Positions 9 to 41,215 of a stretch of DNA of 64,000 nt are shown piece after piece (positions within the stretch are counted from its first letter, which is position 1; each line of letters starts with the position of its first letter). This stretch comes from a virus. Position numbers and translations under genes: made by a program. The DNA lies in IMG/VR virus record IMGVR_UViG_3300037258_001099, positions 1-64,000 of that record. One strand, 5' to 3'. The notes beneath the pieces are model-generated. The model did not search any database and had not been told where the DNA came from. It saw nothing but the letters and a program-made list of their open reading frames with translations.

Positions 9-212
9 CTACACTGCTGGTAATTCTTCTTCATCCAAGCAGTTAGTAAAACCAGTTGCCTGTTTGATCTCAGCTATTCGATCTTGAGAAAGGTTCTCCA
101 CTTTCAATGTTATAATGTCATGGGTGATATCTCCATGCATATCATGCTTCTTGAACCATTCAACAGCTTCTTTTGCATGTATATGGCTTCTGTAATACAA
201 TAAGTATGACAT
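9..212 (-). CDS. Small protein of unknown function (67 aa)
   Basis: Start chosen at 212 because AGAAAGG lies 8 nt upstream of that ATG; an in-frame ATG at 251 lacks a binding site. The 67-residue product is mixed charged/hydrophobic with an alternating strand-helix pattern (YYRSHIHAKEAVEWFKK, then HDIITLKVENL) and an acidic tail. No cysteine pairs, signal peptide or membrane segment. I do not recognise the family. It is the leftmost member of a leftward series of small phage-type genes. Confidence 0.7.
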   Translation of the reverse strand: MSYLLYYRSHIHAKEAVEWFKKHDMHGDITHDIITLKVENLSQDRIAEIKQATGFTNCLDEEELPAV

Positions 213-264
213 GTAATTTACCTTTCTGCCTTTCAAAATGTGTTGAAACATGTTGATTTCTGCA

Positions 265-530
265 CTTCAGCGTGAATGAGCCTCAGTGGCTCTACTACCC
301 ACACATCGCTGCAATACATCGCACTCTTTTCGAGTGTATGACCCTAGCCGGGCAAGTTACCGCTCTCTGGTTCCAATAGAGAGCAAAAGATCGGAGGTGA
401 ATACTCCGATTGCCGCATTTACGCTGGCACCATCCGTGATCCACTCTTTTGGTCGATTATTTCACGCCAAAGAATTGAAGGTTGCACGGTCAGCCTACTA
501 GTCGTGGTCGAGCTACTTCACGCTGGATTC
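265..530 (+). ncRNA. Candidate structured RNA, HEARO/omega-RNA-like
   Basis: This 266-nt gene-free stretch folds on paper into a closed multibranch structure. A perfect 9-bp stem (268-276 with 517-525) encloses perfect hairpins at 278-292 (GAGCC/GGCTC), 323-336 (CACTC/GAGTG), 362-384 (GCTCTCT/AGAGAGC) and 390-410 (ATCGGAG/CTCCGAT), plus CACG/CGTG at 485-505. Length, GC-rich hairpins and an ATGA at the 5-prime side recall HEARO RNAs, the omega RNAs of IscB; I know such RNAs can stand alone without an IscB gene, and no IscB is in this window. The strand and class are inference: the pairing would also be possible in the complement. The open frame 286-501 through it has no binding site. Confidence 0.55.
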
Positions 531-602
531 CCGTTGAACCCAAAAGATTTGTCCTACAAATGTCTTCAAAACGCATACGTTTCAATACTTTTGAATACAA
601 TT

Positions 603-968
603 TCAATTACTGCTAATCTCTCCTTGACGGCAAGATGGGCATGAGCCAATGCCAAATTTGACACGAAACTCTGCAATTCCCTCTAGAAGCTTGTCTATCG
701 CTTCTCCGTCTTCAGGTCCCAGTGCCATAATGCAGTCTTCAGCAAGATGGTGGATATCCCACTGAAAGTTGCTGTACTTTTCATCACCGCGAGCCCTGCG
801 ATCACCAAGTTCACCCAAAATCTGAGCGGAGCTCAGTGTTAATTCATCAATAGTCACTCCCATCTCTCTTGACTCTGGGCTATAATCGTTCCTGTCTCGA
901 TGCTTTAGAATGGCACCCAAAGCCTCCCGTAGCTGATTGGTTGAGATTGCTGTAATGTCTGTAGCCAT
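603..968 (-). CDS. Hypothetical protein (121 aa) with C-terminal CPSC
   Basis: Binding site AGAAAGGAAA sits 6 nt before the ATG at 968. Residues 10-75 are helical and charged; the C-terminus has a single CPSC pair (residues 112-115), too little for a zinc finger on its own. No membrane segment. Spaced well from both neighbours, so it may have its own transcript. Family not recognised. Confidence 0.8.
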   Translation of the reverse strand: MATDITAISTNQLREALGAILKHRDRNDYSPESREMGVTIDELTLSSAQILGELGDRRARGDEKYSNFQWDIHHLAEDCIMALGPEDGEAIDKLLEGIAEFRVKFGIGSCPSCRQGEISSN

Positions 969-14139: not shown

Positions 14140-14197
14140 CTCATGATTATTGCATCGTTAGAGTAGTGCTACACAGGACGTGTGGAGGAGAGAGAGT

Positions 14198-15292
14198 ATG
14201 CAATCGTTCTACCGTTTTTGTTTGGATTTGCGGAAGATTTCGTGGTGGTGTCGTCTTCTTATTGTTCTTGGATCATTTCTCCTATTTGAAGGGCTTGTTG
14301 TGTACATGACAACGATTGGCAGGGATCGTGGTGTGGCTTCTTTGCTGATCATTACTGGTATTTTGGCGGCCTTGCTTTTCTCCTGGAAGAAAGCGCTTGC
14401 CATTGAGTGGGGATTACTCTTGGTCTATCTTTGGATCAATGTCTCCATCAAGGGATGGTGCTATGACCAAGTTGTGGCTTTTTTATCAGGAACCTTTCTT
14501 GATTTTTTTATTATAGCGACCATTGGATATTTTCGTCATGGCTTTGAGTGCTTAGAGCAAGCTATAGCAAAAGAGCAGAGCCTAGCCAATGTCCATCATG
14601 AGCTCCGCTCACCGCTCACTGCTATTATTGGTTCTTTGGATATCATGCGAGATCATGGCCGTCAGATCAGTGAGCAGGAACACGACATGTTTCTTGATTA
14701 TGCGGTCTATGCTAGTGAAGAGCTTACAAGAATTGCTGATAATGTGCTTGATGCAATTCGTGCGGATTCTGATGTAAGCATTCCCTGGATCAAGCAATTT
14801 GACCTCTGCTCTGTCGTTTCTGATATACTGCGTCGTGCTCATAGTGACGGCCATTGCATCCATATCGACATTCCAGAGGATATCGTGGTGTATGGCGATT
14901 CTCAGCATGTGGGCCAAGTTATGCGGAACCTGCTCTCTAATTGCTTTAAGTATTCGCCAGATGGCAGTCCTGTCTTTGTGCGTGTCTGGCAGGATGATAT
15001 TTATAGTTATGTTTGCGTGAGAGATAAGGGGCCTGGTATTCGTGCCGAGCATCTCCCCTTGATCTTTCAAAAATTTTCTCGTCTTGATCATGATATTGCG
15101 GGTCCAATACGAGGGATAGGGCTTGGTCTCTACATTTGTCGAAGACTTATTGAGAATATGGATGGTCGCATCTGGGTTGAGAGTGCTGGCATATCTGGGG
15201 ATGGGAGCAGCTTTTATTTTACGCTTCCTCGTATACAATCCAAGAAAATTTGTGTTCCTCTTTCTCCTGTGGCAGAATACAGAAACATTTGA
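14198..15292 (+). CDS. Membrane sensor histidine kinase, orphan
   Basis: 364 aa; ATG at 14198 with AGGAG upstream. Four to five membrane helices fill residues 15-110, with almost no extracytoplasmic domain. HisKA follows with the phospho-acceptor in HHELRSPLTAI (His near 134), then N box MRNLLSNCFKYSP, G1 DKGPGI and G2 GIGLGLYICRRL. All catalytic boxes are intact. No response regulator is in the window, so it must signal to a host regulator. The gene directly behind it encodes a leader-type peptide, the layout of peptide-sensing kinases (HPK10-like), and suggests peptide signalling or control of peptide production. Confidence 0.9.
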   Translation: MQSFYRFCLDLRKISWWCRLLIVLGSFLLFEGLVVYMTTIGRDRGVASLLIITGILAALLFSWKKALAIEWGLLLVYLWINVSIKGWCYDQVVAFLSGTFLDFFIIATIGYFRHGFECLEQAIAKEQSLANVHHELRSPLTAIIGSLDIMRDHGRQISEQEHDMFLDYAVYASEELTRIADNVLDAIRADSDVSIPWIKQFDLCSVVSDILRRAHSDGHCIHIDIPEDIVVYGDSQHVGQVMRNLLSNCFKYSPDGSPVFVRVWQDDIYSYVCVRDKGPGIRAEHLPLIFQKFSRLDHDIAGPIRGIGLGLYICRRLIENMDGRIWVESAGISGDGSSFYFTLPRIQSKKICVPLSPVAEYRNI

Positions 15293-39889: not shown

Positions 39890-41215
39890 ATGAAAACGAT
39901 AATTTCTGCAAAGCTCAAACTGAATACAACTCCAGAACAGTTTGCACAACTGCGCACGACTCAACTGGCATATCGTGACTCTCTCAATTTTGTGAGTCAG
40001 TATGCTTTTGAGCATGGCAAAACAAGTAGCAGGATTGCTTTGCATAAAGCCAATTATGGTGAGATACGTACTCGTTTTCACTTGCCTTCTCAAATGGCTT
40101 GCAGTGTTTTTATACAGGTAGGTGCGACCTATAAAGGTCTCTGGACCAAGGTCAAGAAGAATGCAGCAGACCGCAAATCTGGTCGAACCAAGAAACGCTA
40201 CAAGGGACTTGATCAAGCTCCTAAGTACGTTTCTCCTACCTTGACCTACCAACACGGCAAGGATTACAGTTTCAAGACAGACAACCACGTTAGCGTCTTG
40301 ACCTTGGAAGGGCGCGTGGTTGTTCCCTATACGGGTTATAACCAGCATGTTTCCTTGATTCAAAAGGGAGCTGAGATCGGAGCTGCCAAGCTCTGGTACG
40401 ACAAACCCAAGAAGCAATTCTATTTGCTGGTGAGTCTTGAGATTGAGATAGCCGACCCAACACCAGAAACCCATAAAGGGATAGCGGGTGTGGATGTGGG
40501 CGTTCGCTACTTGGCAGTATCCAGCAACACACGAGGGGAATGTTCTTTCCACACAGGGAAGAGTGTTGTCCCCAAAGCGAACCATTATGCGAGACTGAGA
40601 AAGCGTCTGCAACGAAAAGGCACTCGCTCTGCTACCCGCCGTTTGGTGGTGATTAGCGGACGAGAGAGACGGTTGAAAGCTGACGCCAATCATGTAGTCT
40701 CCAAACGCATTGTGACCCGATATCCAAACAGCCTGATCGGCTTGGAGCAATTGACAGATATCCGAGAACGAACCCCACGCAAGCATGGCAAGAAGGCTAG
40801 CAGGAAGCAGAGGCGTGCTAACGCTACTTATTCCAAATGGTCGTTTGCTGAGTTGCAGAGCATGATAGCCTATAAAGCTCTCATAGCTGGGAGCATGGCT
40901 ATCAAGGTGGATGCCAACTACACCAGCAAAGCTTGTCCCGTGTGTGGGCATACCTGTGGTGCTAATCGTCCCAACAAGGGCCTGCTGTTTATCTGTCAGA
41001 ATTGTCACTACACGCTCCATGCTGATCTAGTTGGTGCTAGGAATATCGCAATGCGAACGTTGCTCGTCCGGCAGGACTGGTCGAGTACGGGTACTTTGTC
41101 AGAGTGCCCTGATGTGTCGAGCGTTGAAGCCAAAGCAGCACGTCTTTCGAGATATGCTGAGTTGCGGTGGAGCTTAGACACAAGCTCATCCCCTTCTAGG
41201 GGATTGAGTTTCTGA
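39890..41215 (+). CDS. tnpB: TnpB RNA-guided nuclease (IS605 OrfB)
   Basis: 441 aa. N-terminal OrfB_IS605 helices, RuvC-like core with Asp 202 (AGVDVGVRYLAV), Glu 286 (GLEQLTDIRE) and Asp 379 (LHADLVGARNIA), and a zinc finger CPVC (349-352) / CQNC (369-372). All three catalytic residues are present, so it should be an active guide-RNA-directed DNA nuclease that keeps the element at its donor site. A C-terminal tail of about 50 residues overlaps the putative guide-RNA scaffold. Confidence 0.93.
   Translation: MKTIISAKLKLNTTPEQFAQLRTTQLAYRDSLNFVSQYAFEHGKTSSRIALHKANYGEIRTRFHLPSQMACSVFIQVGATYKGLWTKVKKNAADRKSGRTKKRYKGLDQAPKYVSPTLTYQHGKDYSFKTDNHVSVLTLEGRVVVPYTGYNQHVSLIQKGAEIGAAKLWYDKPKKQFYLLVSLEIEIADPTPETHKGIAGVDVGVRYLAVSSNTRGECSFHTGKSVVPKANHYARLRKRLQRKGTRSATRRLVVISGRERRLKADANHVVSKRIVTRYPNSLIGLEQLTDIRERTPRKHGKKASRKQRRANATYSKWSFAELQSMIAYKALIAGSMAIKVDANYTSKACPVCGHTCGANRPNKGLLFICQNCHYTLHADLVGARNIAMRTLLVRQDWSSTGTLSECPDVSSVEAKAARLSRYAELRWSLDTSSSPSRGLSF

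Follow-up and report, generated by a model that had tools for sequence, protein, structure and literature searches.

Positions 226–619 on the minus strand of the window (the first 64,000 nucleotides of a phage record of 136,990 bases; coordinates are those of the window unless stated otherwise) hold a whole non-autonomous IS607-type element, with its left end near 619 and its right end at 226. Within it, at 226–362, lies the core of a TnpB guide RNA (omega RNA or reRNA). Judged by comparison with its relatives, this core is a conserved and covarying minus-strand RNA of the TnpB type. Neither TnpA nor TnpB is encoded within 226–619, and neither a TnpB of the family nor its resolvase was found near the element, which is thus not an autonomous IS607 element but a TnpB-less derivative of the IS607-type elements (serine recombinase plus TnpB) carried by Ktedonobacteria. 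We propose that it is a mobile guide RNA, probably used in trans by a TnpB of the host, with the start of the downstream gene as its guide.

A TnpB-type guide RNA and its relatives

The class Ktedonobacteria was reached by way of a different type of TnpB gene, with an IS605-like right end, at 39890–41215 on the plus strand (76 loci, with up to 84% identity to Ktedonobacter copies); this gene points to Ktedonobacteria as the host group. A DNA search with the element gave 5 matches in 8 genomes and 18 in 47 genomes of the class, and the matches correspond to the minus strand of the window. In L093, L094, L095, L134, L135, L136 and L138 the RNA lies at the 3′ end of a TnpB gene on the same strand, and the last codons of TnpB in the linked loci (..LARLGPHT..) continue into the RNA sequence CTTGCCCGGCTAGGGCCACACACTC. 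A serine resolvase domain (PF00239, E 1.3e-18) is encoded upstream of the L138 TnpB, and the TnpB of L136 contains PF07282 and PF01385 and is named by NCBIfam at a general level only. The linkage of the RNA to TnpB and the resolvase upstream in L138 identify the family as IS607-type, a label that rests, at the level of sequence, on a minority of copies (resolvase similarity in 23 of 111 loci). These 111 loci, distributed over 21 of the 47 genomes, are the matches of a model that includes the window copy. A TnpB sequence is present upstream in 86 of them and absent from 25, as judged within the stretch read around each locus, some of these stretches being cut short by the end of a contig; the listing of the TnpB-less loci omits L275, L276 and L278 of the 25. 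In L276 and L278, from different genomes, the element is reduced to little beyond the palindrome of its right end and GAAAGGCAG, in both cases in front of the same response-regulator gene.

Model R2, from which the window sequence was left out, scored 226–362 of the minus strand at 121.8 bits (E 1.5e-26); its second-best match in the record had an E of 1.7. In an alignment of 14 sequences, 18 of the 29 predicted pairs were changed on both sides. A larger alignment of 54 sequences (50 of the 111 bacterial loci, the window and three viral loci), which was fitted to the structure, has 98.0% of its cells paired, 140 double-sided compensatory cells (0 of 500 shuffles) and 15 of 20 pairs changed on both sides. 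Plain alignment of 11 extended TnpB-less elements gave 95.0% core pairing with 27 double-sided cells (0 of 500 shuffles), and 12 of 22 pairs were changed on both sides. In the model alignment, every pair in the core of the window copy is intact.

Comparative pairing defines helix 1 (341–353, minus strand), formed by GCCC (353–350) and GGGU (344–341), and helix 2 (317–340), formed by CAU (340–338) with AUG (319–317) and CACUC (336–332) with GAGUG (326–322), the latter helix carrying the most double-sided changes in the core. Helix 3 (260–314) pairs UUGCA (314–310) with UGCAG (264–260) and encloses a GAGCC (292–288)/GGCUC (282–278) hairpin. The right end (226–259; alignments A1 and A2, 111 loci) is an imperfect palindrome followed by GAAAGGCAG, which contains a new Shine-Dalgarno sequence, GAAAGG. 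The folding energy of the core is not unusual (z −0.94), so the case for an RNA rests on comparison and not on folding energy.

The preliminary description of this region had placed a standalone HEARO/omega-RNA-like structure at 265–530, closed by a perfect 9-bp stem and with five further hairpins. The inverted repeat is there (268–276, CAGCGTGAA, with 517–525, TTCACGCTG) and so is the strong folding: the 266 nt fold with −91.6 kcal/mol on the plus strand (z −4.23; equaled by 0 of 200 shuffles) and −90.1 kcal/mol on the minus strand (z −2.66; equaled by 2 of 200 shuffles). We also agree that the stretch holds no credible gene, the single overlapping ORF of at least 60 aa (71 aa, GTG start, 286–501) being a mechanical listing. 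The extent has to be redrawn to 226–619, and the RNA moved from the plus to the minus strand, given the orientation of its relatives. The closing stem stands as a perfect inverted repeat but not as a functional helix. Across 11 homologous elements 62.5% of its cells are paired, compared with 50.0 ± 4.0% in shuffles and 95.0% in the core helices; one side is missing in several of these elements, and its 3′ arm is taken up by a local hairpin in the consensus of the family. Both the shuffle control (1 of 500) and a slide control lean in its favor, in a test for which the structure was derived from the window itself and many of the cells are gaps. On that account, its support as a functional helix is at best weak, and we set it aside as a conserved helix.

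The attribution to the HEARO/IscB family, as an omega RNA on the plus strand, can be given virtually no credence. HEARO copies are plentiful in Ktedonobacteria (2–66 in each of eight genomes), and with the model working in 8 of 8 genomes the lack of a hit in the phage carries weight: Rfam HEARO (RF02033) matches neither the window nor, up to an E of 10, the surroundings of the element, nor any other part of the record. A search for IscB (RRXRR domain, PF14239) found no match in the record, and likewise none in any control genome. IscB RNAs carry their guide at the 5′ end, and the relatives found here are TnpB right ends on the opposite strand. Across Rfam as a whole, the window and the rest of the record gave no match, the vicinity of the element gave none of relevance up to an E of 10, and no family matches the RNA. 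In a search for RAGATH-18, no RAGATH match was found to the window region (up to an E of 10) or to 13 family loci (up to an E of 0.5). The description had named as its refutation the lack both of a hit to any model and of compensatory changes in homologous sequences; no Rfam model matches, but homologs exist and do show such changes, so that one half applies and the other does not. Its idea of a standalone OMEGA-type guide RNA, with the guide in the start of the neighboring phage gene, was right in spirit. In one Ktedonobacteria genome (G003:C10:221806–222228), about 9 nt separate a HEARO RNA from a copy of the IS607-type element on the same strand.

Insertion at Shine-Dalgarno sequences

The left end of the window element, AGATTAGCAGTAATTGAAA (601–619, minus strand), was placed near 619 by its likeness to the left ends of L172 and L173 (AGAAGAACAGTGATTGAAA), two near-identical copies at two unrelated sites, and the right end at 226 was set by the alignment of copies. 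At the left junction is AAGGAG (620–625, minus strand), a Shine-Dalgarno sequence that coincides with the AGGAG TAM of IS607 TnpBs. The element separates two phage ORFs on the minus strand: an upstream one of 121 aa (603–968), whose stop codon now lies within the left end, and a downstream one of 67 aa (9–212), whose ATG is 13 nt past the right end. The downstream ORF has no Pfam match and its longer listed form (9–251) no PHROG match; the flanking ORFs and one long phage protein have no relatives in the viral contigs. No element-free allele of the phage site was found.

The same arrangement recurs among the bacterial copies. The right ends of the 111 loci are usually GAAAGGCAG, and in 68 of the 111 an ATG that opens an ORF of at least 60 codons lies 0–15 nt beyond, compared with 7–12 of 109–110 at seven downstream control offsets. 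Two upstream offsets gave 3 of 111 each, and IS605-type right ends gave 2 of 69 (the 69 of 76 loci in which such an end was recognizable). With GTG and TTG also allowed, the count for the element rises to 78 of 111, compared with 15–27 of 109–110 downstream. By ATG alone, a start within 15 nt is found in 20 of 25 TnpB-less and 48 of 86 TnpB-linked loci; 43 of the 111 copies have no qualifying ATG within that distance. Left junctions were judged in the 37 of 111 loci with a recognizable left-end motif, and contain AGGAG in 29 and GGAG in 35, compared with 1.2% and 3.9% of background 12-mers. AGGAG is absent at the left of some TnpB-less copies (L180 and L257).

The ribosomal protein gene rplU provides a comparison of inserted and uninserted sites. 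It is present in 43 genomes, and 28 loci were read, 22 of them with a recognizable start; AAGGAG precedes the ATG by a few nucleotides in 18 of the 22, and in two genomes (G007 and G008) the right end of the element occupies the place where the others have AAGGAG. Within the accessible part of a published study of IS607 TnpBs, AGGAG is the TAM in 18 of 22 tested strains (PMC11061315). From the junction counts, the rplU comparison and this published TAM, we infer that the insertion point is the Shine-Dalgarno sequence and that the right end supplies a new one. In two further genomes (G029 and G030; L294 and L295) the rplU leaders end in GAAAGGCA and share conserved blocks. They were considered as decayed right ends and left uncounted, as the element model does not match them and the remaining leader is unlike; possibly they derive from another or a decayed element.

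By reading of their translations, genes downstream of individual copies look like rplU (twice), dnaK, metG and a gene for an apparent phosphoenolpyruvate carboxykinase; over all copies, the downstream genes are diverse and share no function. Both rplU (L180 and L273) and the apparent phosphoenolpyruvate carboxykinase gene (L257 and L269) are preceded by elements of the family in two genomes each, the elements being of different types.

Copies without TnpB and possible action in trans

On the 5′ side of its core, the window copy carries a domain (363–542, minus strand; alignments A4 and A5, model R3) seen only in TnpB-less copies. It is common to the window copy and eight TnpB-less bacterial loci in 6 of the 47 genomes, which together form the building set of R3; the eight are all the loci that R3 finds in the 47 genomes. 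The domain is absent from the 26 other family loci searched, TnpB-linked and TnpB-less. A pattern scan of viral contigs recovered three further copies of the RNA. Two of them (L320 and L322) are TnpB-less and have the 5′ domain (E 9.7e-15 and 1.1e-8, respectively, with a model built without them), and the third (L321) is TnpB-linked. An ATG lies 9 nt past the right end in L322 and 7 nt past it in L321; that of L320, at 4 nt, opens an ORF under the 60-codon threshold and was not scored. BLASTN of the region against phages and plasmids gave no match. BLASTN of the core against phages gave five short matches, dismissed as chance, as were matches of a plus-strand 16-mer to nine viral contigs with unrelated surroundings.

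The window copy, the eight bacterial copies and the two viral contigs with L320 and L322 have no cognate TnpB. A second, distinct TnpB is encoded elsewhere in the record (L003:18330–19556 on the minus strand, about 101,330–102,556 of the record) and is followed by a conventional-looking RNA. This TnpB and the one at 39890–41215 are 25–26% identical to the family TnpB and neither adjoins an R1-type RNA; the record contains no TnpB of the IS607-type element family. With identity this low and no R1-type RNA beside either gene, the partner would have to be that of the host.

In TnpB elements, the guide with which the RNA terminates is a copy of the DNA beyond the right end. The guide of the window RNA would accordingly be at its 3′ end, from 225 downwards, a placement that rests on TnpB biology and on the 20-nt guide given in the accessible text of PMC11061315; the predicted guide, AAAGGTAAATTACATGTCAT (206–225, minus strand), includes the start codon of the downstream gene. 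The element keeps both transposon ends and the guide RNA, in the absence of TnpB and transposase, and was inserted directly after the AAGGAG of a small phage gene, this sequence being both TAM and Shine-Dalgarno; GAAAGGCAG at its right end provides a replacement, from which the downstream gene would be translated. We envisage that the RNA would be transcribed together with the gene, so that its guide (225–206) would be the gene's own start, and a cognate IS607-type TnpB from the Ktedonobacterial host would bind and process it. Such a TnpB could cut element-free copies, in which AAGGAG is directly followed by the guide sequence; with the break then repaired from a copy that has the element, the phage allele bearing it would tend to be retained and to spread.

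The main alternative accepts the same identity and sees in the element a dead passenger, a miniature derivative that a transposase moved in trans and whose RNA would have ceased to serve any TnpB. Deletion derivatives are common among IS elements, no TnpB is present in cis, and of the 25 of 111 copies that are TnpB-less some are short remnants. We nevertheless consider it unlikely, if far from negligible, since the 11 extended TnpB-less elements retain their core pairing, with double-sided changes that none of the shuffles reproduced, and the core of the window copy is unbroken. Much less likely still is a domesticated 5′ leader that controls translation or stability in cis, for example via TnpB or a nuclease-dead TnpB-like protein. 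Copies directly before the start codons of rplU-, dnaK- and metG-like genes and the restriction of the 5′ domain to TnpB-less copies would suit such a role, and phages do hold RNA-guided repressors of TnpB origin, according to the accessible part of PMC13418256; but the downstream genes lack a common function and insertion at the TAM already accounts for the location.

Our preferred reading, a mobile guide RNA served in trans by a host TnpB, can be carried further, to a conjecture that we hold only tentatively and with some doubt. Standalone TnpB guide RNAs with their own 5′ domain may be small gene drives in Ktedonobacteria phages, each of which would sit between the Shine-Dalgarno sequence and the start codon of a phage gene, repair the Shine-Dalgarno sequence that it separated, and use the host TnpB in trans against element-free alleles of competing or recombining phages. 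The Shine-Dalgarno sequence would then be a near-universal TAM.

Relation to known systems and further features of the record

IS607 TnpBs, guide RNAs and non-autonomous IS elements are known kinds. Non-autonomous IS elements such as MITEs and PATEs have two transposon ends and no transposase; the window element is like them in this respect but keeps a covarying guide RNA and an extra 5′ domain. Standalone, trans-acting IscB omega RNAs are reported to exist in Ktedonobacter racemifer. These are likewise guide RNAs without a nuclease in cis, from the same bacterial group, but they belong to the IscB/HEARO type, with the guide at the 5′ end, and not to the TnpB type of the window RNA, in which it is at the 3′ end. 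The closest system is the IS607 TnpB with a RAGATH-18-derived reRNA described in Cell Research in 2024, which, in the accessible part of that paper, shares the IS607-type TnpB, the guide RNA 3′ of it and the AGGAG TAM, and has a 20-nt guide (PMC11061315). By subtraction from the counts in the paper, 5,771 of 16,029 such reRNAs (about a third) are not beside an IS607 TnpB, and the terms "ribosome binding," "start codon" and "shine" have no occurrence in its accessible text. In contrast to the RAGATH-18 reRNA, the family described here has no Rfam match, and its core begins inside the coding end of TnpB when linked. The guide RNAs of phage TldRs are also of the TnpB kind and phage-borne, but have their protein in cis, as far as the accessible part of PMC13418256 shows, whereas the window RNA does not.

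As far as the open-access literature shows, the RNA family without an Rfam entry, the exchange of one Shine-Dalgarno sequence for another across copies, and the TnpB-less phage lineage with its own 5′ domain, present in three viral contigs, are new. The findings tie the published TAM of IS607 TnpBs to a genome-wide pattern of landing in Shine-Dalgarno sequences, and with the replacement sequence even housekeeping genes could be entered and survive. It also becomes possible to test whether a guide RNA can move by itself and work in trans with a TnpB already resident.

Several other features of the record were seen in passing. A serine resolvase domain (PF00239, 154.9 bits) is encoded at 128006–128404 (+) of the record (L311) and is too unlike the resolvase of the element family to appear in tblastn, and a single ORF of 4,588 aa spans 73880–87646 (+) of the record. 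In the window, a phage-encoded histidine kinase (HisKA, HATPase_c) is found at 14180–15292 (+), and at about 1088–1116 three copies of GTGGTTAAT stand in tandem between two phage ORFs.
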